This document shows, piece after piece, positions 4,287 to 38,998 of a stretch of DNA of 64,000 bases. Made by a program: the position numbers and the translations under genes. The notes below the pieces were generated by a model. The model saw nothing but the letters and a program-made list of their open reading frames with translations. It was not told the origin of the DNA and did no database searches. The stretch is from NCBI RefSeq assembly GCF_036250065.1, contig NZ_CP109199.1, positions 2,418,001 to 2,482,000 on the forward strand, in the 5' to 3' direction. The stretch is from Micromonospora sp. NBC_01699. Lineage in GTDB: Bacteria; Actinomycetota; Actinomycetes; Mycobacteriales; Micromonosporaceae. Each line of letters begins with the position of its first letter. The first letter of the stretch is position 1.

Positions 4287-6350
4287 GTGTCCGCATCCCG
4301 TACCCCTGTCGTGGCTGACCCGGTCGTCGTCGCGGCCGGGACCACGGCGGCCGACGCGGTGGCCGCGGCGGGACTGCCCGCGGCCGGCCCGAAGGCGATA
4401 GTGGTCGTCCGGGAGGTGACCGGCGACGGCACCGGCCAACTGCGTGACCTCGACTGGGCGCCCGACGTCGACACCGAGGTCGAGCCGGTCAGCCTGGACT
4501 CACCGGACGGGCTCAACGTGCTGCGCCACTCCACCGCGCACGTGCTGGCCCAGGCCGTCCAGGACATCTTCCCGGAGGCGAAGCTCGGCATCGGCCCGCC
4601 GATCGAGAACGGCTTCTACTACGACTTCGACGTGTCGAAGCCGTTCCAGCCCGAAGACCTCGACAAGCTCGAAAAGCGGATGCAGGAGATCGTCAAGGCC
4701 GGGCAGCGGTTCCGGCGCCGCCGCTTCGACAGCCTGGACGAGGCCCGTACCGAGCTGGCCGACGAGCCGTACAAGCTGGAGCTGATCGAGGTCAAGGGGG
4801 CCGGCGACTCGGCCGGCGGCTCGGGGCTGGACGCGGGCGAGGTGATGGAGGTCGGCGCCGGTGAGCTCACCATCTACGACAACATCGACGCCGGCACCGA
4901 CAAGGTCTGCTGGTCCGACCTGTGTCGGGGACCGCACCTGCCCAGCACCCGGCTGATCGGCGCCTTCAAGCTGATGCGCTCCGCCGCCGCGTACTGGCGC
5001 GGGTCGGAGAAGAACCCGCAACTCCAGCGGGTGTACGGCACCGCCTGGCCGACCCGGGACGCGCTCAAGGCGTACCTGAAGTTGCTCGAAGAGGCCGCTC
5101 GGCGCGACCACCGCAAGCTCGGCTCGGACCTCGACCTGTTCAGCTTCCCCGACGAGATCGGCTCGGGCCTGGCGGTCTTCCACCCCAAGGGCGGCATCAT
5201 CCGGCGGGAGATGGAGAACTACTCCCGGCAGCGGCACGAGCGGGCCGGGTACGAGTTCGTCAACACCCCGCACATCACCAAGGGCCACCTGTTCGAGACC
5301 TCCGGCCACCTCCAGTGGTACGCCGACGGCATGTACCCGCCCATGTCGGTCGAGGGCGCCGACTACTACCTCAAGCCGATGAACTGCCCGTTCCACAACC
5401 TGATCTACCGGGCCCGGGGTCGCTCCTACCGGGAGCTGCCGCTGCGGCTGTTCGAGTTCGGCTCGGTCTACCGGTTCGAGAAGTCCGGCGTGGTGCACGG
5501 CCTGACCCGGGTACGCGGCATGACCCAGGACGATGCGCACATCTACTGTACGAACGAGCAGATGGCCGGCGAGCTGAAGTCGCTGCTGCGCTTCGTGCTG
5601 GACCTGCTGCGCGACTACGGCCTGGACGACTTCTACCTGGAGCTGTCAACGCGCAACCCGGAGAAGTCGGTCGGCACCGACGAGAACTGGGAGAAGGCCA
5701 CCGAGGCGCTGCGTTCGGCGGCCGAGGAGTCCGGGCTCGACCTGGTGCCGGACCCGGGCGGCGCGGCGTTCTACGGCCCGAAGATCTCGGTCCAGGTGAA
5801 GGACGCGATCGGCCGTACCTGGCAGATGTCCACCATCCAGGTCGACTTCAACCTGCCGGAACGGTTCGGCCTCGAATTCCAGGCGTCCGACGGCAGCCGG
5901 CAGCGTCCGGTCATGATCCACCGGGCCCTCTTCGGCTCGATCGAGCGGTTCTTCGGGGTGCTCACCGAGCACTACGCCGGGGCGTTCCCGGCCTGGCTGG
6001 CGCCGGTGCAGGTGGTCGGCATCCCGATCCGCGAGGAGCACGCCGGCTACCTGGCCGAGTTCGTCGAGGCGCTGCGCGACCAGGGGATCCGGGCCGAGGT
6101 GGACAGCTCCGACGACCGGATGCAGAAGAAGATCCGGACCGCCCAGCAGCAGAAGGTCCCGTTCATGGCGATCGCCGGCGACTCCGACGTCGAGGCGGGT
6201 TCGGTCTCGTTCCGCTACCGCGACGGCTCGCAGCGCAACGGCATCCCACTGGCCGAGGCCGTCGCCCACGTCGTCGACGTGGTCCGCTCCCGCTCCAACT
6301 CCGGCCCAGCCGCGGAACCCCCCAACCCGTCCACCCAACCCCCCGCCTGA
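4287..6350 (+). CDS. thrS: Threonine--tRNA ligase
   Basis: Class II aminoacyl-tRNA synthetase of 687 residues that charges tRNA-Thr. A TGS-like N-terminal part (residues 1-75) is followed by the editing domain with HSTAHVL and CRGPHLPST, whose His and Cys residues form the editing site. The catalytic core has MNCPFHN (zinc-binding Cys) and [14 protein letters not shown], followed by an anticodon-binding domain. The start is GTG 4287, since a clear ribosome site AAGGAG lies 6 nt upstream at 4275-4280; an in-frame TTG at 4272 would put that site inside the gene. The last 15 codons are extremely C-rich, unlike the rest of the gene, and run into the hairpin at 6413. No T-box leader is visible in the 114-bp upstream gap. 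Confidence 0.97.
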
Positions 6351-6683
6351 CCCACCCCGCTCCGCTCCTCCCCCCCCCGCCCCCCTGGCCCCCCGCCCCC
6401 GCCCGCTCCGTTCGTTGATCATGAAGTTAGCGCCATTGGAGAAGATCAAAAAGGGCGTTAACTTCATGATCAACGCTCTGGTGTGGCCGTTCCGGGAGGG
6501 GGTGGGGGTGGCGTGGGAGGCTGCTTGCGGTGGGAGTTGCTGCGGGGGTGGGCGTTGCGGTGCGGTTCATCCTCGGGTGCCGGGCGGTGTGCACGTGAGC
6601 CTGGGCCCGTGGAGCGACCCCGCGTGCCTGCGCGGCAGGTACGGGCGGATGGGTTCCGTGCGGCTGACCGTAGGATCGTCGGT
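6351..6683. other. Intergenic region with strong strand skew
   Basis: No gene is supported here. Bases 6340-6412 are almost entirely C with some T on the + strand. A 63-nt palindrome follows at 6413-6475, and the strand then flips to G-rich (6476-6620) up to the HIT gene. See the separate entry for the palindrome. Confidence 0.8.
6413..6475. repeat. Long intergenic palindrome, family A copy 1
   Basis: Two 22-nt arms (6413-6434 and 6454-6475) pair with one mismatch around a 19-nt loop. The core of the arm is TTGATCATGAAGTTA. The same core forms the arms of a second palindrome at 26492-26554, 20 kb away. It lies between two genes of the same direction, and the C-rich to G-rich switch centres on it. 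Confidence 0.92.
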
Positions 6684-7226
6684 GTGACAGGGGCGGCGCG
6701 GCACACGGAATCCGAGATGTCGGACGGGTTGGATCGGCTCTGGACCCCGCACCGGATGACGTACATCTCCGGGCAGGACCAGCCGGCCGAGGGTTACGAG
6801 AAACCGTCCGGCTGCCCGTTCTGCCTGGCACCGGGCAAGGAGGGCGACGACAGCCTGGTGGTCGCCCGGGGCAAGCGGGTGTTCGTGGTGCTGAACCTCT
6901 ATCCGTACAACCCGGGGCACCTGCTCGTCTGCCCGTACCGGCACGTGGCCGACTACACCGAGCTGGACGCGGAGGAGACGGCTGAACTGGCCGCCCAGAC
7001 GCAGACCGCGATGCGGGTGATCCGCAAGGTCAGCAGCGCGCACGGCTTCAACATCGGGATGAACCAGGGTGGCGTGGCCGGTGCCGGCATCGCCGCCCAC
7101 CTGCACCAGCACGTGGTACCCCGCTGGGGCGGCGACGCCAACTTCATGCCCGTCATCGGCCGTACCAAAGTCCTCCCCCAACTCCTCACCGACACCCGCA
7201 ACCTCCTAACCACCACCTGGCCCTAA
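6684..7226 (+). CDS. HIT-domain protein, AP4A phosphorylase-like
   Basis: A 180-residue histidine-triad nucleotide hydrolase/transferase. The catalytic triad is HLHQHVVPRW near residue 143, and the region LNLYPYNPGHLLVCPYRHV matches the family. It also contains CPFC, a possible zinc ligand pair. It resembles the mycobacterial diadenosine-tetraphosphate phosphorylase-like protein encoded between thrS and pgsA1, and it keeps the thrS neighbour here. The start is GTG 6684 or ATG 6717; I chose the former to leave a family-like N-terminal tail, but the ribosome site is weak for both. The stop codon lies inside the 12-bp target duplication of the insertion element at 7231, so the insertion did not damage the protein. 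Confidence 0.88.
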   Translation: MTGAARHTESEMSDGLDRLWTPHRMTYISGQDQPAEGYEKPSGCPFCLAPGKEGDDSLVVARGKRVFVVLNLYPYNPGHLLVCPYRHVADYTELDAEETAELAAQTQTAMRVIRKVSSAHGFNIGMNQGGVAGAGIAAHLHQHVVPRWGGDANFMPVIGRTKVLPQLLTDTRNLLTTTWP

Positions 7227-7230
7227 CCCC
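7219..7230. repeat. Target-site duplication, left copy
   Basis: GGCCCTAACCCC, repeated perfectly at 8723-8734, directly abuts the left end of the insertion element. It includes the TAA stop of the HIT gene. Confidence 0.93.
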
Positions 7231-7290
7231 AATGCCGCGTAGTTAAGGCTTGGGTCTGCTTGTCAAGGGCGTGTCGTGGCAGAAGGAACG

Positions 7291-7348
7291 ACGGGGCTCC
7301 GGTATAGAGGTTTGTCACTCCAAGACAGCCTCTGGACCGGGAGCCCCG
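7291..7348 (+). promoter_or_regulatory. Hairpin covering the transposase ribosome site
   Basis: ACGGGGCTCCGGT (7291-7303) pairs with 7336-7348 (ACCGGGAGCCCCG) with one bulged G. Inside this, AGAGG (7306-7310) pairs with CCTCT (7329-7333). The right arm contains GGGAG, the likely ribosome site for the TTG start at 7352. Such structures in other insertion sequences block translation from read-through RNA that enters from outside genes; here read-through would come from thrS/HIT. Confidence 0.65.
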
Positions 7349-7351
7349 CCG

Positions 7352-8710
7352 TTGGAACAGTTTGCCATCACCCGGACGATCGCGGTGGCTTCGGGGCGGT
7401 TCGCGCCGGGTCATCTGGGTGAGTTGACGCAGCACGTGCCGTTCGAGATGGTCGACGCGGTCCTGGCCGATACCCGGTCGGTGCAGGCTCGGGTGCGGGA
7501 TGTGCCTTCGCGAGTGGTGGTATATCTGCTGCTCGCGGCGGGGCTGTTCACCGAGTTGGGCTACCAGCAGGTATGGGCCCGGCTCGTCGCCGGCCTGGAC
7601 GGGTTGGCGGTGGCGATGCCGACTTCCTCAGCCCTGTCCCAGGCCCGCCGTCGGGTCGGGGACAAGCCCCTGGCGGCGTTGTTTCGGCTGTTGGCGGGTC
7701 CACCCGCCGGGGCCCAGCGGTGGCGGGGTCTGCTGGTCTGCGCGATCGACGGCACCAGCATGTTCGTGCCCGACAGCACGGCGAATCTGGCGGTCTACCC
7801 GCGTCAGGCCGGCACCCACGGCGGGTCCGGATATCCCATGGTGCGGCTGGTCGCGGTCGTGGCCTGCGGCACCCGCACACTGATCGACGCGGTGTTCACC
7901 CCACTCACCACCGGTGAACTCGCCTGCGCCGGGCGTCTGCTGGGCTGTCTGCACCCGGGCATGCTCCTACTGGCCGACCGGGGCTTCGCCGCCCGCACGA
8001 TGATCGAACAGTTCGCCGGCACCGGCGTCGACCTGCTCGTGCGGGACAAAGACGACCGGCGGCTACCGGTGATCCGCCGCCACCACGACGGGTCCTGGCT
8101 ATCGGTCATCGGCGCGATGACGGTCCGGGTCGTCGACGCCGAGATCCTGGTGCACCTCGACGGGAAACACCATGTCGGCCGGTACCGGCTGATCACCACC
8201 CTCACCGATCACCACCGATTCCCCGCTCTGGACCTGGTCACGCTCTACCACCAACGCTGGGAAATCGAGACGACGTACCTGGAGTTGAAGTCCACCCTGC
8301 TCGGCGGACGGGTCCTACGGGCCCGGACCCCGAACGGGGTGAGTCAGGAAGTCCACGCCCTGCTGACCGTCTACCAAACGGTGCGGCTGGCTATGGCCGA
8401 CGCCACCGCCAACCAACCGACCAGCCCGGACCAGGCCAGCTTCACCGTGGCGGTCCACGCCGCCCGGGACCAGATCATCCTGGCCACCGGGGTCATCGCC
8501 GACACCACCATCGACCTCGTCGGAGTGATCGGCCGCGCGGTCCTGACCCACCTCCTCCCGAAACGACGCGCCCGAACAAGCCCACGAGTAGTCAAACGCG
8601 CCATCTCCAAACACCGCGCCAAAGGCACCATCGACCGCACCAACTACCACCACACCATCACCGTCAACATCCTGCACACCACAGGATTGACAACCGACCC
8701 ACCCCCCTAA
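7352..8710 (+). CDS. IS4-family transposase
   Basis: DDE transposase of about 452 residues. The three acidic residues are visible: Asp in CAIDGTSM (about residue 132), Asp in LLADRGF (about 210), and Glu in the IS4 signature YHQRWEIETTYLELK, which fits Y-(2)-R-(3)-E-(6)-K exactly. An N-terminal IS4-type domain (FAPGHLGELTQHVPFEMVD) precedes the core. I prefer TTG 7352 because GGGAG lies just upstream within a hairpin and the product starts close to the conserved domain. The frame stays open back to TTG 7250 and GTG 7271, so a longer product is possible. The gene is intact. Its 3' end is C- and A-rich relative to its 5' end. Confidence 0.92.
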   Translation: MEQFAITRTIAVASGRFAPGHLGELTQHVPFEMVDAVLADTRSVQARVRDVPSRVVVYLLLAAGLFTELGYQQVWARLVAGLDGLAVAMPTSSALSQARRRVGDKPLAALFRLLAGPPAGAQRWRGLLVCAIDGTSMFVPDSTANLAVYPRQAGTHGGSGYPMVRLVAVVACGTRTLIDAVFTPLTTGELACAGRLLGCLHPGMLLLADRGFAARTMIEQFAGTGVDLLVRDKDDRRLPVIRRHHDGSWLSVIGAMTVRVVDAEILVHLDGKHHVGRYRLITTLTDHHRFPALDLVTLYHQRWEIETTYLELKSTLLGGRVLRARTPNGVSQEVHALLTVYQTVRLAMADATANQPTSPDQASFTVAVHAARDQIILATGVIADTTIDLVGVIGRAVLTHLLPKRRARTSPRVVKRAISKHRAKGTIDRTNYHHTITVNILHTTGLTTDPPP

Positions 8711-8722
8711 CTAAGCGGCATT

Positions 8723-8734
8723 GGCCCTAACCCC
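8723..8734. repeat. Target-site duplication, right copy
   Basis: GGCCCTAACCCC, identical to 7219-7230, immediately after the right inverted repeat of the insertion element. Confidence 0.93.
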
Positions 8735-8776
8735 CTCCCTCCCCCTTCCCCCCCGCGTGCCCCGCCCCCTCCTCGG

Positions 8777-8834
8777 CGATCTAGGGCGAATACGTGCTTG
8801 TTGATCTCCATTCACACGTATTCGCCCTAGATCG
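8777..8834. repeat. Long intergenic palindrome, family B copy 1
   Basis: Perfect 20-nt arms (8777-8796 and 8815-8834; left arm CGATCTAGGGCGAATACGTG) enclose an 18-nt loop. A second copy at 38798-38855 shares the outer arm (CGATCTAGGGC), the inner arm (ATACGTG) and most of the loop (GATCTCCA). It differs at two arm positions, each matched by a compensating change in the opposite arm. The left flank is nearly pure C/T and the right flank nearly pure G/A/T. Confidence 0.94.
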
Positions 8835-8863
8835 CGGGGGGAAGGGGTGGGAGGGTGGGGGGC

Positions 8864-9874
8864 ATGACGGTGGATGGGCGGGTGCTGGGGCGTGGTGGGG
8901 TTCGGGTTGGCGGGTTGGGGGTGGGGTGTTGGGCTATTGGGGGGCCCTGGTACGCGGGGGAGCAGCCGCTGGGGTGGGGCAGGGTTGATGACGAGGAGTC
9001 GGCGCGGGTCGTACGACGGGCGCTCGAACTCGGGGTGACCTTTTTCGACACCGCCGACACCTACGGGGCCGGGCACAGTGAGCGGGTGCTCGGGCGGGCC
9101 CTGGCCGGGCGGCGGGACGAGGCGGTCATCGCCACCAAGTGGGGCAACACCTTCGACGAGCAGACCAAGCAGGCCACCGGGCCGGACTGGTCGCCGGCAC
9201 ACCTGCGCCGCGCGGCCGAGGCGTCGCTGCGCCGACTCGGCACCGACCGGATCGACCTCTACCAACTGCACCTCAACGACCTGGCCATCGAGCTCGCCGA
9301 GCCGCTGCTCGGCACCCTCGAAGACCTCGTCGCCGAGGGCAAAATCCGATGGTACGGGTGGAGCACCGACTTCGCCGACCGGGCCGAGGCGTGGGCGCTC
9401 GGCGGCCGCCACACCACCGCCATCCAGCACTCCTTCTCCGTGTTGCAGGACTCGCCGGAGGTGCTCGCGGTCTGCGAGAAGCACGACCTGGCCAGCATCA
9501 ACCGGGGACCGCTCGGGATGGGGCTGCTGACCGGCAAGTATACCGCCGAGACTGTGCTCGGCCCGGACGACGTACGCGGCATCGCGCCGGAGTGGCTGGA
9601 CTGGTTCCGCGACGGCCGCCCGGCACCGGAGTGGCTGAGGCGGGTCGCCGAGGTCCGGGAGGCGCTGACCGTGGATGGGCGCACCCTGGCCCAGGGCGCG
9701 CTCGGCTACCTCTGGGCGCGCAGCCCCCGTACGGTGCCGATCCCCGGCTGCCGCACCGTGGCGCAGTTGGAGGAGAACGCGGGCGCGCTGGCGTACGGGG
9801 CGCTCACCGCGGCGCAACTGGCCGAGGTGGAACGTCTGCTGGCTGACCTGCGGGATCCGTCCGAGCGGAACTGA
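8864..9874 (+). CDS. Aldo/keto reductase
   Basis: A 336-residue NAD(P)H-dependent oxidoreductase with the (beta/alpha)8 fold. Family markers are FFDTADTYGAGHSERVLGRA (Asp and catalytic Tyr), TKWG (Lys), the region RLGTDRIDLYQLHLND (His), and the C-terminal TVPIPGCRTVAQLEENAG that binds the cofactor phosphate. The start is ATG 8864 with a G-rich ribosome site. The first 30 codons are strikingly G-rich compared with the rest, part of the skew that begins at the palindrome at 8777. It stands alone; the next gene is 630 bp away. The substrate is unknown. Confidence 0.9.
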   Translation: MTVDGRVLGRGGVRVGGLGVGCWAIGGPWYAGEQPLGWGRVDDEESARVVRRALELGVTFFDTADTYGAGHSERVLGRALAGRRDEAVIATKWGNTFDEQTKQATGPDWSPAHLRRAAEASLRRLGTDRIDLYQLHLNDLAIELAEPLLGTLEDLVAEGKIRWYGWSTDFADRAEAWALGGRHTTAIQHSFSVLQDSPEVLAVCEKHDLASINRGPLGMGLLTGKYTAETVLGPDDVRGIAPEWLDWFRDGRPAPEWLRRVAEVREALTVDGRTLAQGALGYLWARSPRTVPIPGCRTVAQLEENAGALAYGALTAAQLAEVERLLADLRDPSERN

Positions 9875-9950
9875 GTACGGCGCCACTGCCCGGTCGCAGC
9901 GGGGTAGGTTACCTCCCCGATCGGGCAGAGGCGCCACTCACCGGAGTGAA

Positions 9951-9960
9951 ATAACGTTAT
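9951..9960. promoter_or_regulatory. Candidate auxiliary LacI-type operator
   Basis: ATAACGTTAT is the core of the operator at 10226-10239, found again 275 bp upstream. LacI-family repressors often use paired sites to form DNA loops. No -35/-10 pair is obvious beside this copy. Confidence 0.5.
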
Positions 9961-10193
9961 CCTAAATCTTGCCGCTGTGTTCGTGCTCCGTACCGGATTC
10001 TGAGACGGCGATGCGGAACGGCGATGCGGAACGGTGGCGCGCCCGGCTTCGCGGGCGGCGTCCCGGCATCCTTGCCGGTCGCGCTGGTGCCGCTGGTTGT
10101 TGAACTCTGCGGCGTCGCTGGGCTCGATCATGGACCGGTCCGCCCGTTCCGTGCCGGTCCTTTCGAGCGTCCGGGCACCGGACCTTGACGGTC

Positions 10194-10239
10194 TTGACAC
10201 GCGGTCGAAACTTTCTAAGATCTATAGATAACGTTATCT
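10194..10239 (+). promoter_or_regulatory. Promoter with LacI-type operator
   Basis: TTGACA (10194-10199) and TAAGAT (10216-10221) are spaced by 16 bp, a near-consensus housekeeping promoter. A perfect 14-bp palindrome AGATAACGTTATCT (10226-10239) covers the expected start point, with the central CG typical of LacI-family operators. This should control the Gfo/Idh - MFS - DegT cluster. No LacI-family regulator is encoded in the window. Confidence 0.75.
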
Positions 10240-14452: not shown

Positions 14453-14474
14453 CCGGGTGACCCCACGGTGATCT

Positions 14475-14531: not shown

Positions 14532-14549
14532 CAGGATCGGCGGGTCGGT

Positions 14550-19946: not shown

Positions 19947-20489
19947 ATGCCGCACATGTGGTGGTTGGTGGGTGCTGTCGCCGTGGTCGGCCTGATCGCG
20001 GTCTACCTGTCCTGGACCGTCGGTCGGGTCGACCGGCTGCACATCCGGGCCGCCTCGGCCGCCAGGTCCCTGGACGCACACCTGCTGCGCCGGGCCGCCG
20101 CCGCGGCTGTGCTGGCCGAGGAACACTTCGCGGTGGAGCTGTACGCGGCGGCCCGGATCGCGCTCGACGCCGGCCCCGAGGAGCGGGAGGCGGCCGAGAA
20201 CGACCTCACCCGCCAGCTCCGACTCACCCCGCTGTCCGCGGACGACCCGGCCGCCGAGTCGGTGATCGCGGCCAGCCGCCGGCTCGGCCTGGCCCGCCAG
20301 GTGCACACCGATCTCGTACGCGACGCGCTGTCCGCCCGCCGCCGCCCCGTCGTACGACTGCTCCGCATGACCCGCAAACACCCCCGCCCCACCTACTTCG
20401 ACGTAGACGATCCCACCCTCCACCCCCTGCCCTCTCCTCCTTCCCCTCCTTTCCCTCCCACCCCCACCCCGAGATCCGCACTCCGGTAG
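19947..20489 (+). CDS. Single-pass membrane protein of unknown function, downstream of pimA
   Basis: Protein of about 180 residues. One N-terminal membrane helix (WWLVGAVAVVGLIAVYLSW) precedes an Ala/Arg/Leu-rich helical region (residues 30-150) with strong coiled character. I do not recognise a named domain. The start is ATG 19947 after GAGGAG; ATG 19956 is an alternative. The last 20 residues are low-complexity Pro/Ser/Thr from a C-rich tract, and the stop codon TAG lies inside the left arm of the palindrome at 20481. The original C-terminus may have been replaced or extended by that element. A membrane gene in this position is common after pimA in actinobacteria. Confidence 0.7.
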   Translation: MPHMWWLVGAVAVVGLIAVYLSWTVGRVDRLHIRAASAARSLDAHLLRRAAAAAVLAEEHFAVELYAAARIALDAGPEEREAAENDLTRQLRLTPLSADDPAAESVIAASRRLGLARQVHTDLVRDALSARRRPVVRLLRMTRKHPRPTYFDVDDPTLHPLPSPPSPPFPPTPTPRSALR

Positions 20490-20539
20490 AGAAAGAGTGG
20501 TTGTTCGCTCCGTCATTGCCACTCGTTGCTCTACCGGAG
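20481..20539. repeat. Long intergenic palindrome, family C
   Basis: The outer stem is CTCCGGTAGAG (20481-20491) with CTCTACCGGAG (20529-20539). The inner stem is GAGTGG (20495-20500) with CCACTC (20519-20524), separated by a small internal loop and closed by an 18-nt loop. It shows the same C-rich left flank (20400-20480) and G-rich right flank (20540-20640) as families A and B, but an unrelated stem sequence. Confidence 0.9.
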
Positions 20540-20680
20540 CTGGCTCGGGCGGGGCGGTGGGCGGGTGAGGTCGACCACAGGGCAGGCCACGGGTGGGTTG
20601 ATTGGCTGTCGGAAGGGCGGTGGGGCGGGCGTAGCCTTGGGCCCGGTATGTGAAACCTGGCCCCGAGGAGTGACTGAGTC

Positions 20681-21598
20681 GTGTCCGATTCCGCCGTGCA
20701 GCCCGAGTCCACCACCCCTGTTGTCGGCAGTGCCCGAGTCAAGCGCGGGATGGCCGAGATGCTCAAGGGTGGCGTGATCATGGACGTGGTCACCGCCGAG
20801 CAGGCGAAGATCGCCGAGGATGCCGGTGCGGTCGCGGTGATGGCGTTGGAGCGGGTGCCGGCCGACATCCGGGCCCAGGGCGGCGTCTCCCGGATGAGCG
20901 ACCCGGACATGATCGACAGCATCATCAACGCGGTCTCGATCCCGGTGATGGCCAAGGCCCGGATCGGCCACTTCGTCGAGGCCCAGGTGCTCCAGGCGCT
21001 CGGCGTCGACTACGTGGACGAGTCCGAGGTGCTGACCCCGGCCGACTACGCCAACCACATCGACAAGTGGGCGTTCACCGTGCCGTTCGTCTGCGGGGCG
21101 ACCAACCTGGGCGAGGCGCTGCGCCGGATCACCGAGGGCGCGGCCATGATCCGCTCCAAGGGCGAGGCCGGCACCGGCGACGTCTCCAACGCCACCACCC
21201 ACATGCGCAAGATCCTGGGCGAGATCCGCCGTCTCGGCTCGCTCGCCCCGGACGAGCTCTACGTCGCGGCGAAGGAGCTCCAGGCACCGTACGAGCTGGT
21301 CCGTGAGGTGGCCGAGACCGGGAAGCTGCCGGTCGTACTCTTCACCGCCGGAGGCATCGCGACCCCGGCGGACGCCGCGATGATGATGCAGCTCGGCGCC
21401 CAGGGGGTCTTCGTCGGGTCGGGCATCTTCAAGTCCGGCAACCCGGAGCAGCGGGCCGCCGCGATCGTCAAGGCGACCACCTTCCACGACGACCCGGACG
21501 TGCTGGCCAAGGTCTCCCGTGGGCTGGGCGAGGCGATGGTCGGCATCAACGTCGACGAGATCCCGCAGCCGCACCGCCTTGCCGAGCGTGGCTGGTGA
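20681..21598 (+). CDS. pdxS: Pyridoxal 5'-phosphate synthase lyase subunit PdxS
   Basis: A 305-residue (beta/alpha)8 enzyme that builds PLP from ribose 5-phosphate, glyceraldehyde 3-phosphate and ammonia. The imine-forming lysine is in MAKARIGHF (about residue 90) and the second active-site lysine in RSKGEAGTG. The phosphate loop [14 protein letters not shown] is intact. The start is GTG 20681 with GAGGAG upstream. It is followed by pdxT after 25 bp; the two subunits form a 12+12 complex in known systems. The G-rich leader starts at the palindrome at 20481. Confidence 0.97.
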
Positions 21599-26075: not shown

Positions 26076-26497
26076 ATGGAAGCGACAGACATCAACGAGC
26101 GGGCGTACGAGACCGAGATCGAGGCGATCAGGCGGGTGGTCGCCACGATCGAGCACTCCCAGAACAACGAGCTGCCCGACGAGTTCGTTGGCCTGTTCCG
26201 GGCCGACGCGATCTGGACGACGGGCGGGGGCAAGCTCCTGATCGGCCGCGACGAGATCTCGACGTTCACCCACCGGGTGCTCCCCGGCGGGATGAAGGAC
26301 TCGACGGTCACCTTCGAGGTCGTACACGTGCTGTTCCTGCGCCCCGACGTCGCCGCCGTCAAGGCCCGCCAGCTCTACCAGACCCCAACCGGCCCGGAGG
26401 AGGGCACCCCCTGTTCGTCATGACCAAGCAAGACGGCCAATGGCTCCCAACCGCCTGCCAAAACACCGGCGACCTCACCCCCGAAACCGCGCGTTGA
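26076..26497 (+). pseudogene. SnoaL-like (SgcJ/EcaC-type) protein, frameshifted
   Basis: The first frame runs to 26423 and encodes an NTF2-fold protein (IEAIRRVVATIEH, FRADAIWTTGGGKLLIGRDEI, VHVLFLRPDVAAVKARQ). After GPEEGTP it stops shortly. The expected ending (LFVMTKQDGQWLPTACQNTG) continues in the neighbouring frame to the stop at 26495-26497. One extra C in the run near 26408-26412 would restore a protein of about 140 residues. It is either a recent frameshift or a sequencing error in a C-run. Start: ATG 26076 fits a leaderless transcript from the SoxR-type promoter; GTG 26061 is an alternative. The stop codon of the restored frame lies in the left arm of the palindrome at 26492. Confidence 0.75.
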
Positions 26498-26554
26498 CCA
26501 TGAAGTTAGCGCGGATTCAGGGCCCGGATCATGTCGCTAACTTCATGATCAACG
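26492..26554. repeat. Long intergenic palindrome, family A copy 2
   Basis: Arms 26492-26511 and 26535-26554 (CGCTAACTTCATGATCAACG) pair with one mismatch around a 23-nt loop. They share the family A core TGAAGTTAGCG with 6413-6475, while the loops are unrelated. Both convergent neighbours end within it: the SnoaL frame at TGA 26495-26497 in the left arm and the PP2C gene at 26549-26551 in the right arm. C/A-rich sequence lies to the left, G/T-rich to the right. Confidence 0.93.
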
Positions 26555-28120
26555 GGGGGAGGGGGTGCGGCGGAGGGCTACTACGGCTATGTCGTCGGTG
26601 ATTTCTGGTGGGGCTAGGGTGGTTAGGAGGCGGCCACAGAAGGTGTCGAGGTTGTTGTCCACTGGGGATGCGGCGGTGGCTAGGGCCTGCATTCGTTGGT
26701 CGATGTCGATGTTGCGGCGTTCGATCAGGCCGTCGGTGTAGAGGACCAGGGTGGCGCCGGGGGGCAGGTCGAGTTCCAGGTCGTCGGGGCGGGTGGCGCG
26801 TACGCCGAGCAGGGTGGCCTGGTGCTCGATGAAGGTGGGGGAGCCGTCGGGGGTGATCAGGAGTGCCGGGAGGTGGCCGGCGCTGGCCAGGCGGATCCGG
26901 CCGGTGTCCGGTTCGAGGGTCAGTACGCAGAGCGTGGCGAACTCGCCCGGCAGGAGCGTACGCAGGAGTTTGTCGACCCGGGCCACTATCGCGCCCGGCG
27001 GATGCCCCTCCACCGCGTACGCCCGGATGGCGTGCCGGAGCTCGGCCATGACGGTCGCCGCGTGCAGTGAGTGGCCGGCGACGTCGCCGATCGCGACCAA
27101 CAGTCGGCCGTCGATCATCGCGAGCTCGTAGAAGTCGCCGCCGACCTCGGTGTGCGCGCTCGCCGGCTCGTAACGGACCGCCAGATCCAGCCCGTCGATC
27201 CGGGGCAGCGTACGGGGCAGCAGGCTGCGTTGCAGCGTCACCGCGATCCGGTGCTCCTGGTCGTAGGAGCGTTGCGCCTCGACCGCCGCGGCGAGTGCCT
27301 GTACGAGCTGACTGAGCACCATGGACTCGGCGGCCAGGGCCGAGTCCGGCACGGCGATCTGCACCCCCGGCCGGTCGTCGCGCAGCCGGGCGGTGGCCAC
27401 CGCGATCCGCTCATCGGCCGCGGTGAGCAGCGGCCAGGCGGTCGGCGATTCGGTGCGCAGCGCCACGCCGAGCGGGACCGGCGTCGGGTCGAGCGGCCAC
27501 GACCTGATCGTCACCGGTGTGCCGGGCTCGGTGGTGGTGGCGATCAGCCGTTCGCCGTCGGTGTTCTGGGCGGCGACGACGGCGCCCGTACCGAAGATCT
27601 CGGCGGCCCCGGCCACGGCGGCGGTGAGCAACTGGACCAGGGTGGGGGCCGAGTTGACCGCGAGGGTGGTGTCGGCGAGCCGGGCGAGCCGGGCGGCGAG
27701 CAGCTCGGCCCGGCGCCGGGCCCGGTAGTAGCGCAGCGCGGCGTGCGTGGTCGCGACCAGCTCGTCCGGCTCGATCGGCTCGACCAGGTACGCGTCCGCG
27801 CCCCGGCTCAGCCCCTGGATCCGGTCGGCCACGTCGACCGCGTGCGCCGAAACGTGGATCACCGGCCGGGACGACCAGCGCGGATCGGCCTTGATCCGTT
27901 CGCTGACCTCGAAGCCGGTCATGTCGCCCAGCCGCACGTCCAGCACGAGCAGGTCGACGTCCCGGTGTTCCATCAGCTCCAGCGCCGCCCCGCCGCTGTT
28001 CGCCTCGATCACCGTGAAGCCGGCCCGGGACAGCCAGCTCACCAACAGGTAACGCTTCGCGGCCCGGTCGTCCACCACCAGGATCGTGGCGTCCGACGGC
28101 ACCTGGTCGGTCGTGCTCAT
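26549..28120 (-). CDS. Response regulator with GAF-like and PP2C (RsbU/SpoIIE) phosphatase domains
   Basis: A 523-residue output protein of the stressosome operon. Residues 12-130 are a receiver (ILVVDDRAAKRYLLV, phospho-Asp in LLVLDVRLGDMTG, VSAHA, EPIEP; the usual KP lysine is replaced by Glu). Residues 150-290 resemble a GAF domain. Residues 300-515 are a SpoIIE-type Mn-dependent Ser/Thr phosphatase with VGGDFYE, IGDVAGHS, SAGHLPAL, YTDGLIERR and DDIAVVAL. Such enzymes dephosphorylate anti-anti-sigma factors. Its ATG overlaps the kinase stop (ATGA), so the kinase at 28117 probably phosphorylates the receiver. The last codons are CGT-TGA contributed by the palindrome arm at 26535-26554. Confidence 0.92.
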   Translation of the reverse strand: MSTTDQVPSDATILVVDDRAAKRYLLVSWLSRAGFTVIEANSGGAALELMEHRDVDLLVLDVRLGDMTGFEVSERIKADPRWSSRPVIHVSAHAVDVADRIQGLSRGADAYLVEPIEPDELVATTHAALRYYRARRRAELLAARLARLADTTLAVNSAPTLVQLLTAAVAGAAEIFGTGAVVAAQNTDGERLIATTTEPGTPVTIRSWPLDPTPVPLGVALRTESPTAWPLLTAADERIAVATARLRDDRPGVQIAVPDSALAAESMVLSQLVQALAAAVEAQRSYDQEHRIAVTLQRSLLPRTLPRIDGLDLAVRYEPASAHTEVGGDFYELAMIDGRLLVAIGDVAGHSLHAATVMAELRHAIRAYAVEGHPPGAIVARVDKLLRTLLPGEFATLCVLTLEPDTGRIRLASAGHLPALLITPDGSPTFIEHQATLLGVRATRPDDLELDLPPGATLVLYTDGLIERRNIDIDQRMQALATAASPVDNNLDTFCGRLLTTLAPPEITDDIAVVALRRTPSPR

Positions 28121-32476: not shown

Positions 32477-33160
32477 TCAGGTCGGCCGGTACTCCACCTC
32501 GGGGCGGCCGGGGGTGCCGTAGCGGGAGGTGCGGCTGACCCGGCCGGTGCCGACCAGGTGTTCGAGGTAGCGGCGGGCGGTCACCCGCGACGTACCGGTC
32601 CGGGTCGACACCTCGCTGGCGGACAGCCCCGGCTCGGTACGCAGCACGGCCAGCACCGCGTCCAGGGTCTCGGTCCCGAGCCCCTTGGGCAGGGTGTCGG
32701 CGTCGGCGCCGCGCAACGTGGCGAACATCCGGTCGACCTCGTGCTGGGCCACCACCGCGCCGTCGGCGAGGGCCTGGCGGCGGTACTCGGCGTACCGTTC
32801 CAGCTTGTCGCGGAACGCGGCGAAGGTGAATGGCTTGAGCAGGTAGTGGGTCACCCCGAGGGCGACCGCGGCGCGGACCATGGTCAGGTCCCGGGCCGAG
32901 GTCACGGCCAGCACGTCGGTGCTGCTGCCGACCGCCCGCAGCGCCCGGCAGACGTCCAGGCCGTGCAGGTCGGGCAGGCGAAAATCCAGCAGTACGAGGT
33001 CCACCCCGCCGCCACCGTCGACGCGCAGGGCCGCCATCGCCTCCCGGGCGGTGTGCGCGACCCCGACCACGGTGAAGCCCGGCACCCGTTCGGTGTAGGC
33101 GCGGTGTGCGTCGGCGAGCAGGGGCTCGTCCTCCACGACCAGCACCCGGATGGCGGTCAC
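32477..33160 (-). CDS. CitB/DcuR-type response regulator
   Basis: A 227-residue regulator with an N-terminal receiver (VLVVEDEPLLADAHRAY, phospho-Asp in LVLLDFRLPDLHG, VTSARD, LLKPF) and a C-terminal helix-turn-helix (LSASEVSTRTGTSRVTARRYLEHL) of the kind found in regulators of citrate and C4-dicarboxylate uptake. GTG 33160 overlaps the kinase stop by 4 bp (GTGA). The pair reads away from a dicarboxylate symporter gene, its likely target. Confidence 0.92.
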   Translation of the reverse strand: MTAIRVLVVEDEPLLADAHRAYTERVPGFTVVGVAHTAREAMAALRVDGGGGVDLVLLDFRLPDLHGLDVCRALRAVGSSTDVLAVTSARDLTMVRAAVALGVTHYLLKPFTFAAFRDKLERYAEYRRQALADGAVVAQHEVDRMFATLRGADADTLPKGLGTETLDAVLAVLRTEPGLSASEVSTRTGTSRVTARRYLEHLVGTGRVSRTSRYGTPGRPEVEYRPT

Positions 33161-34770: not shown

Positions 34771-34904
34771 CAGTGTTCCCTGTGTGACGGCTCTGGCGCT
34801 TGACGACGCCGGAGATCAGTTTGTTGTTTCGGGTGGGGGTCTGCCCGGTGAACACAATGAACGCAAGGCTGTGCGTACGTGAGATCCAGGCCACAGTCTC
34901 GGGC

Positions 34905-36299
34905 ATGGACACCCCCACCGCCCGGCCACGACGGGACCGCACCCACTATCTGTATCTCGCCGTCATCGTCGCCGTCGTCGCCGGCATCGTCCTCGGCTTC
35001 GCCGCCCCGGAGGCGGCCCGGGAGCTGAAGCCGATCGGTACCGGCTTCGTCGCGCTGATCAAGATGATGATCAGCCCGATCATCTTCTGCACCATCGTGC
35101 TCGGCGTCGGCTCGGTCCGGCAGGCCGCCAAGGTCGGCAAGGTCGGCGGCCTGGCGCTCGGCTACTTCCTGGTCATGTCGACCGTGGCGCTCGCCATCGG
35201 ACTCGTCGTCGGCAACATCGTGCACCCCGGCTCGGGCCTGCACCTCGGCGCCGCCCAGGCCGCCGCCGGCCAGGCCCAGGTCAGCGGCGAGAGCGAGGGT
35301 ACGGTCGACTTCCTGCTCGGCATCATCCCGACCTCGCTGCTGTCGGCACTGACCGAGGGCGAGGTGTTGCAGACCCTGCTGGTCGCGCTCCTGGTCGGCT
35401 TCGCCGTGCAGGCGATGGGCCGCCGGGGCGAGCCGGTGCTGCACGCCGTCGGCGTGATCCAGCGGCTGGTCTTCAAGATTCTGACGATGGTGATGTGGCT
35501 GGCGCCGTTCGGCGCGTTCGGCGCGATCGCCGCCGTGGTCGGCGCGACCGGGATGGACGCGCTCAAGAGCCTGGCCCAGATCATGATCGGCTTCTACGCC
35601 ACCTGTCTGATCTTCGTCATCGTGATCCTGGGCCTGCTGCTCCGCCTGATCGCCGGCATCTCGATCTTCTCCCTGCTGCGCTACCTGGGCCGGGAGTTCC
35701 TGCTGATCCTCTCCACCTCCTCCTCCGAGTCGGCGCTGCCCCGGCTGATCGCCAAGATGGAGCACTTCGGGGTGAGCAAGCCGGTGGTCGGCATCACCGT
35801 GCCGACCGGCTACTCGTTCAACCTCGACGGCACCGCGATCTACCTGACCATGGCCTCGCTCTTCGTGGCCGAGGCGCTGGGCAAGCCGCTCGCCGTCGGT
35901 GAGCAGATCTCGCTGCTGGTCTTCATGGTGATCGCGTCCAAGGGCGCGGCCGGCATCACCGGCGCGGGGCTCGCCACCCTGGCCGGCGGGTTGCAGAGCC
36001 ACCGGCCGGACCTGGTCGACGGGGTGGGCCTGATCGTCGGCATCGACCGGTTCATGTCCGAGGCCCGCGCGCTGACCAACTTCGCCGGCAACGCGGTGGC
36101 CACCGTACTGATCGGCACCTGGACCCGTGAGTTCGACCGGGAGCAGGCGCGGGCGGTGCTCTCCGGCGAGCGACCCTTCGACGAGTCGACCATGGTCGAC
36201 GAGCACGGCCCGGCGGACGACGAGCACGGGCCGGGGGACGACGAGTCCCCGGCCGACGCGGGCGGCACCACGAAGGAACCCGCGGCGGCCCGCGGCTGA
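34905..36299 (+). CDS. Dicarboxylate/amino acid:cation symporter (DctA/GltP family)
   Basis: A 464-residue membrane transporter of the glutamate/C4-dicarboxylate family. The re-entrant loop signature SSSESALPRLI (about residue 270), PTGYSFNLDGTAIYLTMASLF, and MSEARALTNFAGNAVATVLI with its substrate-binding Arg region are all present. ATG 34905 gives a normal N-terminus; ATG 34858 would add an unlikely leader. A C-terminal acidic tail of about 40 residues (DDEHGPGDDESPAD) is unusual for the family. Divergent from the CitA/CitB-like pair. A terminator follows at 36318. Confidence 0.92.
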   Translation: MDTPTARPRRDRTHYLYLAVIVAVVAGIVLGFAAPEAARELKPIGTGFVALIKMMISPIIFCTIVLGVGSVRQAAKVGKVGGLALGYFLVMSTVALAIGLVVGNIVHPGSGLHLGAAQAAAGQAQVSGESEGTVDFLLGIIPTSLLSALTEGEVLQTLLVALLVGFAVQAMGRRGEPVLHAVGVIQRLVFKILTMVMWLAPFGAFGAIAAVVGATGMDALKSLAQIMIGFYATCLIFVIVILGLLLRLIAGISIFSLLRYLGREFLLILSTSSSESALPRLIAKMEHFGVSKPVVGITVPTGYSFNLDGTAIYLTMASLFVAEALGKPLAVGEQISLLVFMVIASKGAAGITGAGLATLAGGLQSHRPDLVDGVGLIVGIDRFMSEARALTNFAGNAVATVLIGTWTREFDREQARAVLSGERPFDESTMVDEHGPADDEHGPGDDESPADAGGTTKEPAAARG

Positions 36300-36317
36300 C
36301 CATCCCCGATCCGCTCC

Positions 36318-36355
36318 TCGGGCCACCCGCTCCGTGCCACGGGCGGGTGGCCCGA
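36318..36355 (+). terminator. Terminator hairpin after the symporter
   Basis: Perfect 13-bp arms (TCGGGCCACCCGC with its complement at 36343-36355) and a 12-nt loop, 19 bp past the symporter stop, followed by ATTATG. Confidence 0.85.
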
Positions 36356-36403
36356 ATTATGTGTAGAGCGCAAGTTACGAGGTTTCATCGGTAAAGTCGG
36401 TTC

Positions 36404-37594
36404 GTGACCAGAGGGCAGAGAATCCTCGCCGGGCTGGCGGTGGCCCTGTCGATCGCGCTCACCGCCTGCACGGAGCAGCCGCCGCAGCGCTCCGGCCCGG
36501 CGTCCGGTGCCCCCGGCCAGCAGGCCGAGCCGCAGGCCACCCCGGCCCTGGAGCTGATCGCCGGGATGCCGCCCTACACCTCCACCACCAACGTGTACGC
36601 CGCCGCCGGCGCCGACCAGTTGAGCGAGGCGGTACGCGGCGACAAGCCCCTCGTCTACGTCCCCAACACCGGCAGCGACGACGTGTGGGTGATCGACCCG
36701 GACACGTACAGGGTGGTGGACAAGTTCCCCGGCGGACCGGAACCGCAGCACGTCGTCCCCTCCTACGACCTGCGTACGCTCTACGTCGCGTCCAGCCGGG
36801 TGCCGTCGGGCGGCCTGGTGCCGATCGACCCGCGCACCGGCAAGCCGGGCAAGCTGATCGACGTGCAGGACGTCTACAACCTGTACTTCACCCCGGACGG
36901 CAAGCAGGGGATAGTGGTCGCCGAGTTCTACCGGCGACTCGACTTCTACGACGTCACCACCTGGCGGCGGACCGGCTCGGTCAGCTTCCCGGAGTGCGCC
37001 GGAATCAACCACCTGGACTACTCGGTCGACGGCCGGACCATGCTGGTGAGCTGCGAGTTCGGCAACCGGATGCTGGTCGTCGACTCGGTCACCCGCACCA
37101 AACTGCGCCAGTTCGACCTGGACGTGGTCGCCGACGGGATGCCGCAGGACACCCGGCTCACCCCGGACGGGCGGCACTTCCTGGTCGCGGACATGATGGC
37201 CGCCGGCGTCTACGTCTTCGACGGCGCGGCCACCCAACGGACCGGTTTCATCCCCACCGGCAAGGGCGCGCACGGCATCTACTTCAGCCGGGACGGCACT
37301 CTCGCGTACGTCACCAACCGGGACGACGGCACCGTGAGCCTGATCGACCTGGCCACGCTCACCCCGGCCGGACTCTGGCGGATTCCCGGCGGGGGCAGCC
37401 CCGACATGGGCGGGCTCTCCGCCGACGGCCGGGTGCTCTGGCTCTCCGGCCGCTACCACGACGAGGTGTACGCGATGAGCACCGCGGACGGTCGGCTGCT
37501 GGCCCGGATCCCGGTCGGCTCCGGCCCGCACGGGCTCACCATCTGGCCCCAGCCCGGCCGCTACTCCCTCGGCCACACCGCCAACATCCGCTGA
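36404..37594 (+). CDS. Lipoprotein with YVTN-type beta-propeller repeats
   Basis: A 396-residue exported lipoprotein. The signal peptide (GLAVALSIALTAC) ends in a lipobox with Cys at about residue 22. After a Pro/Gln-rich linker a seven-bladed propeller is likely, with repeating strands such as LVYVPNTGSDDVWVIDP, LYVASSRV, MLVSCEFGNRMLVVDS, FLVADMMAAGVYVFDG and AYVTNRDDGTVSLIDL. Such propellers mostly bind partners or ligands rather than catalyse. The start is GTG 36404. It is 80 bp before the aminotransferase gene, possibly co-transcribed. Function is unknown. Confidence 0.85.
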   Translation: MTRGQRILAGLAVALSIALTACTEQPPQRSGPASGAPGQQAEPQATPALELIAGMPPYTSTTNVYAAAGADQLSEAVRGDKPLVYVPNTGSDDVWVIDPDTYRVVDKFPGGPEPQHVVPSYDLRTLYVASSRVPSGGLVPIDPRTGKPGKLIDVQDVYNLYFTPDGKQGIVVAEFYRRLDFYDVTTWRRTGSVSFPECAGINHLDYSVDGRTMLVSCEFGNRMLVVDSVTRTKLRQFDLDVVADGMPQDTRLTPDGRHFLVADMMAAGVYVFDGAATQRTGFIPTGKGAHGIYFSRDGTLAYVTNRDDGTVSLIDLATLTPAGLWRIPGGGSPDMGGLSADGRVLWLSGRYHDEVYAMSTADGRLLARIPVGSGPHGLTIWPQPGRYSLGHTANIR

Positions 37595-37674
37595 GCCGGG
37601 TCGGCGGACGCCCCGCCACCGAACGAGCCCCGGCGTGCTCCACGGTGCCCGGTCCGGCCACCTACCCTGGGCAT

Positions 37675-38709
37675 ATGGATCTTGCGCAGGCACAGGAGTT
37701 GTGGAATCCGGAGCCGGGCTGGCTCAACACCGCGAGCTACGGGCTGCCGCCGCGACCGGCCTGGGACGCGTTGCAGCAGGCGCTGGGCGAGTGGCAGGTC
37801 GGCCGTACGTCGTGGGAGGGCTGGAACGCCGCCACCGACCGGTCCCGTACCGCGTTCGCCCGACTGGTCGGGGTGCCGGTCGCCGACGTCTGCGTGGGTG
37901 CCGGGGTGTCCCAGTTGCTCGCCCCGATCGCCGCCGCGCTACCGGCCGGCACCACCGTACTGGCGCCGGAGGAGGAGTTCACCTCGAACCTTTTTCCCTG
38001 GCTGGTGCACGGCGATCGGGGCGTACGGGTGCGCACCGTACCGGCGGCGCGGCTGGTCGAGTCGATCGACGCGTCCACCGATCTGGTCGCGTTCAGCCTG
38101 GTCCAGTCCGCCACCGGCGCGGTCGCCGAGTACGAGGCGGTGGTGGCGGCGGCCCGTGACCACGGCGCGCTGGTGGTGGTGGACGCGACCCAGGGCTGCG
38201 GTTGGCTGCCGTTCGACGCGGGACTGGCCGACGCGGTGGTGGTCGGGGCGTACAAGTGGTTGATGGCGCCCCGCGGCGCCGCGTTCGGTTACCTCGCCCC
38301 GGCGTTGCGGGACCGGCTCACCCCGCTCGCCGCCGGCTGGTACGCCGGTGACGACCCGCACGGCTCCTACTACGGCCCGCCGCTGCGGTTGGCCGCCGAC
38401 GCCCGCCGGTTCGACCTGTCCCCGGCCTGGTTCAGCTTCGTCGGGGCGGCACCCGCGCTGGAACTGATCGCCGAGATCGGCCTGCCGGCGATCCACGCCC
38501 ACAACGTGAACCTGGCCAACAGCTTCCTCACCGGCCTGGGCCAGCCCCCCGGCAACAGCGCCATCGTCACCGTCGACGTCCCCGACGCCCAACAACGCCT
38601 GGCCGCCGCCGGTATCCGCGCCGCCGTCCGCGCCGGCCACCTCCGCGCCTCCTTCCACCTCTACACCACCCCCACCGACATAACCCAAGCCCTAACCGCC
38701 CTCACCTGA
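37675..38709 (+). CDS. Class V aminotransferase-fold PLP enzyme
   Basis: A 344-residue PLP enzyme of the cysteine desulfurase/isopenicillin epimerase fold. The cofactor lysine is in VVVGAYKWLMAPRG (about residue 197), preceded by VVVDATQGCGW (Asp and Gln contacting PLP). WLNTASYGLPPR opens the fold. It lacks the Cys loop of desulfurases, so it is more likely a lyase, epimerase or aminotransferase. The start is ATG 37675. The last 150 bp become very C-rich, running into the C tract before the palindrome at 38798. Confidence 0.86.
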   Translation: MDLAQAQELWNPEPGWLNTASYGLPPRPAWDALQQALGEWQVGRTSWEGWNAATDRSRTAFARLVGVPVADVCVGAGVSQLLAPIAAALPAGTTVLAPEEEFTSNLFPWLVHGDRGVRVRTVPAARLVESIDASTDLVAFSLVQSATGAVAEYEAVVAAARDHGALVVVDATQGCGWLPFDAGLADAVVVGAYKWLMAPRGAAFGYLAPALRDRLTPLAAGWYAGDDPHGSYYGPPLRLAADARRFDLSPAWFSFVGAAPALELIAEIGLPAIHAHNVNLANSFLTGLGQPPGNSAIVTVDVPDAQQRLAAAGIRAAVRAGHLRASFHLYTTPTDITQALTALT

Positions 38710-38797
38710 CCCCACCCCCCCTCCCCCCTACCCCACCCCCCACCCCCCTGCCCCCCGCCCCCTGCCCCCCCACCCCCTGCCCCACCCCTCTCCTCGT

Positions 38798-38855
38798 CGA
38801 TCTAGGGCATATACGTGCTTGTGGATCTCCAACAGCACGTATATGCCCTAGATCG
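38798..38855. repeat. Long intergenic palindrome, family B copy 2
   Basis: Perfect 22-nt arms (38798-38819 and 38834-38855; arm begins CGATCTAGGGCATATACG) enclose a 14-nt loop (TGTGGATCTCCAAC). Compared with 8777-8834 two adjacent arm bases differ (GA to AT), and the facing bases in the other arm have changed to keep pairing. The left flank (38710-38797) is almost pure C; the right flank is G-rich. Confidence 0.94.
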
Positions 38856-38896
38856 CGAGGAGGGGGGCGGGGGTGAGGTGGGTCACTTTTCGAAAC

Positions 38897-38977
38897 GGTA
38901 CGGGGTCGTATTGGAATTTGGGGGCTAGGTTCTTTTCGTTACGAGTCTGTTCCGTATCGTTTTTGAGGGTACGGGGT
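38897..38977. promoter_or_regulatory. Promoter region of the MFS-TetR pair with candidate TetR operator
   Basis: An inverted repeat CGTTACG (38937-38943) - 9 nt - CGTATCG (38953-38959) matches at 6 of 7 positions per arm and has the size of TetR-family sites. A 10-bp direct repeat GGTACGGGGT occurs at 38897-38906 and 38968-38977. The likely ligand is the TetR protein encoded two genes downstream. Confidence 0.5.
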
Positions 38978-38998
38978 ACCGGGGGGTAGGGGCGTTTT

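Follow-up and report, generated by a model that had tools for sequence, protein, structure and literature searches.

Palindromic repeats at C-rich to G-rich strand switches in a Micromonospora genome and their possible role as transcription stops working in both directions

The 64,000 bp of DNA investigated here (“the window”) correspond to positions 2418001-2482000 of the genome of Micromonospora sp. NBC_01699 (contig NZ_CP109199.1; 8.28 Mb, single contig) and have a G+C content of 70.7%. They contain five hairpins each of which, as claimed by a first-pass annotation, sits at a point where the forward strand changes from C-rich and G-poor on the left to G-rich and C-poor on the right. All five hairpins are present, and each folds more stably than its own 200 dinucleotide-shuffled versions (z -6.2 to -11.6); the 150 bp adjoining each hairpin have a negative skew to its left and a positive one to its right. 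According to our own codon-usage gene caller, whose calls are a caveat to all gene-based classes given below, the neighbouring genes run in tandem at four of them and converge at the fifth (26492). The hairpins and their flanks are as follows, with skews listed outward in 50-bp bins:

6263..6412, left flank of the 6413 hairpin, C-rich and G-poor; skew -0.64, -0.68, -0.32
6413..6475, family A hairpin, arms GTTGATCATGAAGTTAGCG and complement; fold -36.6 kcal/mol, z -10.7
6476..6725, right flank of the 6413 hairpin, G-rich and C-poor; skew +0.51, +0.43, +0.18, +0.28, +0.24
8627..8776, left flank of the 8777 hairpin, C-rich; skew -0.70, -0.40, -0.71
8777..8834, family B hairpin, arms beginning CGATCTAGGGC; fold z -9.8
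8835..9034, right flank of the 8777 hairpin, G-rich; skew +0.79, +0.73, +0.47, +0.29
20331..20480, left flank of the 20481 hairpin, C-rich; skew -0.82, -0.66, -0.39
20481..20539, family C-like hairpin with a bulge, likeness judged by eye; fold -31.8 kcal/mol, z -6.7
20540..20689, right flank of the 20481 hairpin, G-rich; skew +0.33, +0.54, +0.16
26342..26491, left flank of the 26492 hairpin, C-rich, the weakest of the five; skew -0.43, -0.06, -0.41
26492..26554, family A hairpin, convergent genes on either side; fold z -6.2
26555..26854, right flank of the 26492 hairpin, G-rich; skew +0.52, +0.56, +0.29, +0.38, +0.33, +0.44
38648..38797, left flank of the 38798 hairpin, C-rich; skew -0.76, -0.90, -0.87
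38798..38855, family B hairpin; fold z -11.6
38856..39005, right flank of the 38798 hairpin, G-rich, upstream of a tandem MFS gene (Pfam MFS_1); skew +0.59, +0.30, +0.64

Several of these flanks reach into genes. The one at 6263..6412 overlaps the 3′ end of a gene for a class II tRNA synthetase (Pfam tRNA-synt_2b), the one at 8627..8776 covers the 3′ end of an IS4-type transposase gene (Nterm_IS4, DDE_Tnp_1), and the one at 26555..26854 lies in the 3′ end of a minus-strand SpoIIE/response-regulator gene (Pfam). The transposase gene (7250-8710), which is flanked by a HIT-domain gene and by the family B hairpin at 8777, has a C-rich 3′ end of its own. To express the switch as a single number we use the skew step D, i.e. 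the skew of the 100 bp to the right minus that of the 100 bp to the left. A sliding scan of the window reaches a D of at least 0.8 at four sites only, all of them at these hairpins, with 26492 amounting to 0.799, and it reveals no reverse switch (G-rich to C-rich) of that size. Membership of the hairpins in a known RNA family was considered and dropped, as the sole match in the window at the Rfam gathering score, ASdes (RF01781; 58726-58793, minus strand, 59.7 bits), sits elsewhere.

The stems had been assigned to three unrelated sequence families sharing a context rather than a sequence. Within the window this is correct, with family A at 6413 and 26492, family B at 8777 and 38798 and family C at 20481, and a fourth family, D, is found elsewhere in the genome (the names A to E were coined in this analysis). 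The arm sequences of the four, A GTTGATCATGAAGTTAGCG, B CGATCTAGGGC, C AGAGAAAGAGTGG and D CGATCTTGCAGTTGTGG, are unrelated and all four families carry the switch, so that the emphasis on context is borne out. Counted as paired arm matches, 64 copies (A 18, B 17, C 17, D 12) are present in a host sample of 2.064 Mb, which consists of 100 evenly spaced 20-kb stretches plus the window; the hairpin at 20481, missed by the ungapped finder and outside the family C match rule, is not among them. The whole genome contains 38 exact-core copies of A and 54 of D, and the copies measured are mostly 44-82 bp long. Families A to D are thus interspersed palindromic repeats located mostly just downstream of stop codons. 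A literature search with the arm strings of A, B and D (C was not searched) returned nothing related by title.

The C-to-G switch at these hairpins is real and genome-wide. D averages 1.03 at the 64 paired copies, exceeds 0.5 at 58 and is positive at 63 of them. In contrast, 109 other intergenic hairpins (at least 16 of 18 arm bases paired, none within 150 bp of an element; two family-like hairpins with D of -0.25 and 1.02 were removed before counting) show a mean D of 0.08 with only three values above 0.5, and this value is exceeded at only 7 of 728 intergenic centres without an element. Hence, the families carry the switch and hairpins in general do not. The annotation had named a lack of the switch at the other long palindromes of the genome as a refutation of its claim; palindromes in general do lack it, which goes against the claim in part, whereas families A to D carry it. 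Searching the 2.064 Mb in the opposite sense yields 62 switches with a D of at least 0.8, 52 of which hold an A-D pair by arm match. Six of the remaining ten are family C-like by eye, including an apparent half element (stretch L018 near 19870) which possesses the left family C arm only and still reaches a D of 0.84. Four have no family hairpin, one of them resembling the end of another IS4-type copy and three showing no clear hairpin. An apparent second IS4-type copy, in stretch L108 near 10634, carries a C-to-G switch at its end and no family hairpin. Reverse switches number 13, some of which are mere shoulders of a switch (e.g. L099 4962 and 5337). That only 4 of 62 strong switches are without a family hairpin (six of the other 58 being assigned by eye) argues against a preference of the elements for landing in already existing C-to-G switches, a reading which their clustering at gene 3′ ends would favour.

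Of the 64 elements, 31 are placed in convergent and 30 in tandem gaps, two in divergent gaps and one inside a called gene, while divergent gaps make up 276 of the 1,117 intergenic gaps of at least 30 bp. The two divergent elements are doubtful since one lies beside an IS4-like gene on its left and the other beside a possible missed reading frame; no weight is placed on them. For the tandem-gap elements (n = 30) the median distance is 63 bp from the upstream stop codon and 223 bp to the next start. Since convergent genes flank about half of the elements, and any bias of 3′ ends would yield a strand switch there, the ordinary composition of gene 3′ ends might be mistaken for a feature of the hairpin. 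This explanation is contradicted and we attribute practically no probability to it. Among genes of at least 600 bp the third-position skew of the last 50 bp amounts to -0.75 in the 70 with an element near their 3′ end, compared to almost no skew (-0.12) in the 1,141 without; convergent gaps without hairpins have a mean D of 0.07 (n = 78); and tandem elements are equally skewed. The view that the pattern is not a property of gene ends therefore stands, as does the claim that it has no orientation, the sense and antisense sides of tandem elements being about equal. Gene 5′ ends on the antisense side are also skewed, at 100-200 bp. Third-position skew declines from -0.75 within 50 bp of the element to -0.08 at 300-500 bp.

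Pooled profiles of the approach strand, by which we mean the strand whose 5′ to 3′ direction leads to the hairpin from either flank, show G falling from 0.35 to 0.14 and C rising from 0.36 to 0.63 with little change in total G+C and a decay over about 200 bp. Within 50 bp of the hairpin C amounts to 0.60-0.61 and G to 0.14-0.17, which matches the composition of Rho-type RNA. The U tract that follows the stem of an intrinsic terminator is lacking in the 25 bp to the right, where T is 0.08-0.17 and G 0.48-0.67; A on the left side, the mirror of this T, is 0.05-0.17. The zone spans the untranslated gap, yet the last codons show it at least as strongly. In the 100 bp next to an element, fourfold sites contain A 0.104, C 0.785, G 0.089 and T 0.022 as opposed to A 0.040, C 0.467, G 0.449 and T 0.044 at 400-1000 bp, so that relative to the far sites the order is A>=C>T>G. 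Expressed as shifts near elements, ln(G/C) changes by -2.13 at fourfold sites and ln(G/A) by -2.23 at NNR codons. TAA accounts for 61% of 72 stop codons within 100 bp and for one of 28 at 400-1000 bp. The approach RNA is weakly structured, its minimum free energy being -0.19 kcal/mol per nt (n = 128) versus -0.42 at control 3′ ends (n = 240). CpG content was rejected as an explanation, the observed/expected ratio of 0.94 in untranslated flanks versus 1.17 in controls being too small a difference to drive the skew. Another GC-type hairpin is present at 3 of 59 convergent ends with an element versus 82 of 287 without, and at 4 of 28 versus 68 of 520 tandem ends, i.e. without any difference in the latter. 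Because C-rich DNA hardly forms GC-type hairpins, and in view of the tandem ends, we give little weight to the idea that the elements replace ordinary terminators.

The switch also occurs outside the host. Family A cores are found in 12 of 150 genomes of the host's taxonomic family and in 3 of its 44 genera (host and its genus included); of 32 stretches from named records which contain them, 30 belong to Micromonospora and two to one other member of that family. All 17 family A loci in other genomes (15 from other genera, two from congeners) have a D of at least 0.44, the 33 family A copies in the named stretches have a mean D of 0.88 with a minimum of 0.12, and D is positive at all 35 elements in the named stretches of the host's family. 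Family D was detected in one of 119 genomes of the phylum, namely the host. One 20-kb stretch from each of 17 other actinobacterial genomes, a sample too small to claim absence elsewhere, contains four switches. Two of these are near neighbours in a single genus; the first falls at a clear hairpin with arms AGTTTCGGGGAAAGTG (family E), the second at an apparently degenerate copy. The arms of family E are unrelated to those of A-D and occur in 7 of 17 genomes searched, with up to 70 exact copies in one. Twelve family E copies, one of which has only 72 bp of left flank, show a mean D of 0.40 (0.00-0.68); the switch is thus of the same sign as in A-D and weaker. Families A and E follow a common plan of invariant arms and an interior of fixed length and variable sequence (22-23 nt in 27 copies of A and 24 nt in 30 copies of E examined). 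In A, interiors pair better within a copy than between copies (p 0.005-0.02); E shows no such difference.

How the strip arises can be read from two further Micromonospora species, G048 and G010, in which orthologous places were sought for 41 elements of all four families, four of them from the window. Of 37 usable G048 alignments 22 contain the element and 15 are empty; of 32 from G010, four contain it, 25 are empty and three family-C-like places were set aside. This sorting was done on full orthologous stretches, with one G048 place set as filled and the three G010 places set aside by eye. At the 40 places scored empty the skew at 60-120 bp is -0.25 compared to -0.71 in the host. Third positions at this distance differ between empty relative and host by 114 G>C versus 15 C>G and by 73 G>A versus 3 A>G, while at 300-500 bp the directions are near balance (238 G>C versus 195 C>G). 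Within the window, G010 has at the 6413 locus neither a family A element nor a C-rich strip and carries a different GC-rich hairpin instead; the 38798 element is missing from the orthologous place of both relatives, each aligned on both sides, and its flank 38648..38797 holds C-tract DNA not present in these empty orthologues. More generally, C-tract and G-tract DNA is added in filled but not in empty alleles, and the alignments display exchanges of TGA or TAG to TAA and of GAG to GAC as well as, beside 38798, of the peptide D-V-D-R to D-I-T-Q. Since the strip is largely missing where the relatives have no hairpin, it seems to build up around the hairpin, and the switch arises by directional substitution after the element has been gained. 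A preference for particular insertion sites is accordingly contradicted as the main cause and very improbable: the skew of the empty places is far weaker than that of the host, from which they differ by directional substitutions within codons that can be aligned. The mild same-sign skew of the empty orthologues within 120 bp, which would suit it, could also stem from lost elements, from uncounted family-C-like hairpins or from a weak bias of the place. D ranges from -0.01 (L044) and 0.32 (L047) up to 1.61 at host-only elements and from 0.29 to 1.64 at those shared with G048; given this overlap, age alone does not set D.

The annotation had offered a mutation gradient around a recurrent hairpin as its alternative to transcription termination, and although we judge it doubtful it is a serious rival. 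It states that strand-asymmetric mutation centred on the hairpin removes G from some 200 bp of the approach strand, no function being involved. The leaving strand, whose 5′ end lies at the hairpin, would repeatedly become single-stranded on both sides, e.g. by cutting or fork arrest at the arms, and C>T and C>G lesions on it would combine with the general pull of the genome to G+C. Changes on the host branch were determined at 11 elements absent from both relatives, nine of which gave sites within 120 bp, using sites at which both relatives have the same base. Third positions within 120 bp, compared to those at 400-1000 bp, show G>A at 16 of 55 versus 26 of 896 sites (10.0-fold) and G>C at 11 of 55 versus 46 of 896 (3.9-fold). 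At first and second positions G>A is found at 9 of 101 versus 12 of 1447 sites (10.7-fold), and this likeness of synonymous and other positions is what a raised mutation rate predicts. On the other hand, changes to G are not raised, with C>G at 1 of 83 near versus 45 of 970 far third positions (not significant) and 6 A>G versus 89 G>A in the empty-to-filled comparisons within 120 bp; C>T amounts to 2 of 83 versus 29 of 970. Four host-only loci with two-sided G048 alignment exhibit larger folds (G>A 7 of 19, G>C 9 of 19).

Further observations in favour of mutation are that the effect follows the distance from the hairpin with little regard to coding, sense or gene orientation, that G was lost rapidly in some host-only loci, that the conserved arms suggest a protein acting on them, and that fourfold-site A within 120 bp is higher at host-only (0.12-0.16) than at shared elements (0.075-0.087), as if G>A came first. 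Against it stand the third-position identity of orthologues filled in both species, which is near background (0.815 within 60 bp and 0.794 at 60-120 bp versus 0.823), and the added C-tract and G-tract DNA, which is not made by point mutation. In addition, other strong hairpins are without effect, so that mutation would call for an agent able to recognise at least five different arm sequences, and we know of no mutator of this spectrum. If it applied nevertheless, the hairpins would act as local mutation engines which, in several genera and around unrelated arms, rewrite some 200 bp per side, and with them codons, stops included, and amino acids in adjacent genes, by a process of the host or of the element; we regard this, too, as rather unlikely. 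It would amount to targeted mutagenesis of a new kind.

As the likeliest reason for the switch we consider selection for a composite, orientation-free transcription stop, to which we assign, from the sequence data, a probability of roughly 0.45. After an element has arrived, G is lost from both approach strands, and T to a lesser degree, for some 200 bp. Any transcript coming in from the left or the right would then be rich in C and A and weakly structured, and would run into a strong stem followed by a G-rich stretch. The putative parts of such a stop would be an unstructured loading zone of the rut type with C exceeding G, a hairpin keeping the 3′ end and a G-rich release zone. The placement after stop codons together with the weak RNA structure leads us to favour a Rho-plus-hairpin stop working both ways. 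Moreover, avoidance of RNA structure should rank the bases as A>=C>T>G, by how little each would pair in such RNA, and by this ranking argument of our own the order observed favours selection. The near-equal shifts of ln(G/C) and ln(G/A), along with the folds for near-neutral and for normally suppressed changes, are roughly in keeping with a single penalty on G which we estimate crudely at about 2.5 scaled units. From these features we infer selection as the driver, the C-rich zone as the part read by Rho, and termination as the function. The suitability of the RNA for Rho loading, likewise claimed by the annotation, is thus supported as far as composition, weak structure and position are concerned, and is called into question by the antisense side and by translated sequence.

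These and other observations weigh against a selected stop. In the 30 tandem pairs the skew amounts to 0.49 on the sense and 0.58 on the antisense side (paired difference -0.09 ± 0.05, p = 0.18), and at equal distance from the hairpin the skew of third positions is no smaller than that of untranslated bases. Ordinary GC-rich, terminator-like hairpins exist without such a zone, and the arms are conserved letter for letter among many copies, which RNA stems do not need. The G>A folds are alike at third and at first plus second positions, and there is an unexplained excess, about 27-fold, of third-position C>A (7 of 83 near versus 3 of 970 far); the C precedes a G in seven out of eight such events in the initial list, one of which was dropped on re-sorting. 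Raised third-position C>A is seen at the host-only elements 25, 28 and 33. Empty orthologues are mildly skewed within 120 bp (-0.25 to -0.31, versus -0.03 to -0.06 beyond 200 bp), and the L030 element, which is shared with G048, reaches a D of only 0.29 and 0.11. Finally, the host-only loci 25, 28, 33 and 40, picked after the fact, lost 20 of 24 third-position Gs on one short branch (28 of 55 for all host-only loci together), by rough estimate faster than a penalty of about 2.5 allows. It is the equality of the antisense side, the undiminished effect in translated sequence and this speed that keep hairpin-centred mutation under consideration. If selection is the cause, the elements would represent a transcription stop that is portable, works both ways and has components directly legible in the DNA of high-GC bacteria, and selection on the nucleic acid would override the choice of codons and amino acids at gene ends. 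Many copies, filled and empty orthologues and the simple statistic D make the question directly testable.

Alternatively, a structure at the DNA level might be selected, such as G-quadruplexes, R-loops or a long C:G zipper extending the stem, for the sake of insulation or of element spread. As RNA, the left and right flanks of an element are able to form a pairing of about -66 kcal/mol across 60 nt, and long G runs and C runs appear in several alignments. Yet flanks of the same element pair no better than those of different elements (z -0.14 ± 0.09, 64 elements), indicating that only composition matters, and G>A changes and the enrichment of A are no help to C:G pairing; we therefore deem this reading improbable. 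Compared to mono-shuffled flanks, same-element flanks pair slightly better (z -0.67 ± 0.14). Copying between the flanks in the manner of a quasi-palindrome was rejected, as complementarity between flanks is no higher within an element than between elements.

Returning to a Rho-type stop, the host has two Rho_RNA_bind matches (6896160-6896387 and 8258645-8258866), the second inside a 477-aa Rho-like open reading frame (L115:533-1966, minus strand). A link between the elements and this second Rho gene was discarded since two matches occur in 14 of 24 other genomes too, their number being independent of the elements.

Parallels to known systems are partial. GC-skewed R-loop promoters of animals likewise show a C-rich to G-rich switch about a centre, but they are centred on transcription starts whereas the elements lie mostly after stop codons and are centred on hairpins. 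REP/BIME repeats resemble the elements in their many dispersed intergenic palindromic copies and in presence or absence between species; to our knowledge, no symmetric skew zone surrounds them. They are mobilised by RAYT transposases, in contrast to which a search with PF01797 (Y1 transposase) gave no match in the host, the same search being positive in 5 of 14 control genomes. Mobilisation by a RAYT was thus rejected. Rho-dependent terminators are preceded, as are the elements, by weakly structured RNA with more C than G. Those with a protecting 3′ hairpin (Dar and Sorek 2018, as cited in PMC8269248) share with the elements a stable 3′ stem and the placement after genes; unlike them, the zone described here is symmetric on both strands, tied to repeat families, equal on the antisense side and extends into codons, and the role of Rho is putative. 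The DNA-uptake-signal terminators of Neisseria and Pasteurellaceae (Kingsford et al. 2007, PMC1852404) are also hairpins after genes formed from inverted pairs of repeated, conserved arms. According to the excerpt of that paper, which mentions no skew zone, they differ in being Rho-independent, with T tails and signals of 9-11 nt.

Elements at orthologous places are in part of different kinds. At the gene end in stretch L033 (10802-10869) the host carries family D where the G048 orthologue (L170) carries family C, with D values of 1.22 and 0.74, respectively, an observation in favour of a selected stop. In stretch L035 (15254-15323) the G048 orthologue (L180) has family D at the same place, its interior being, by eye, apparently inverted. 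At loci 14, 20 and 22 G010 possesses hairpins with arms of the type AGTGGCC..GGCCACT, perhaps a diverged relative of family C, where the host carries family C or D.

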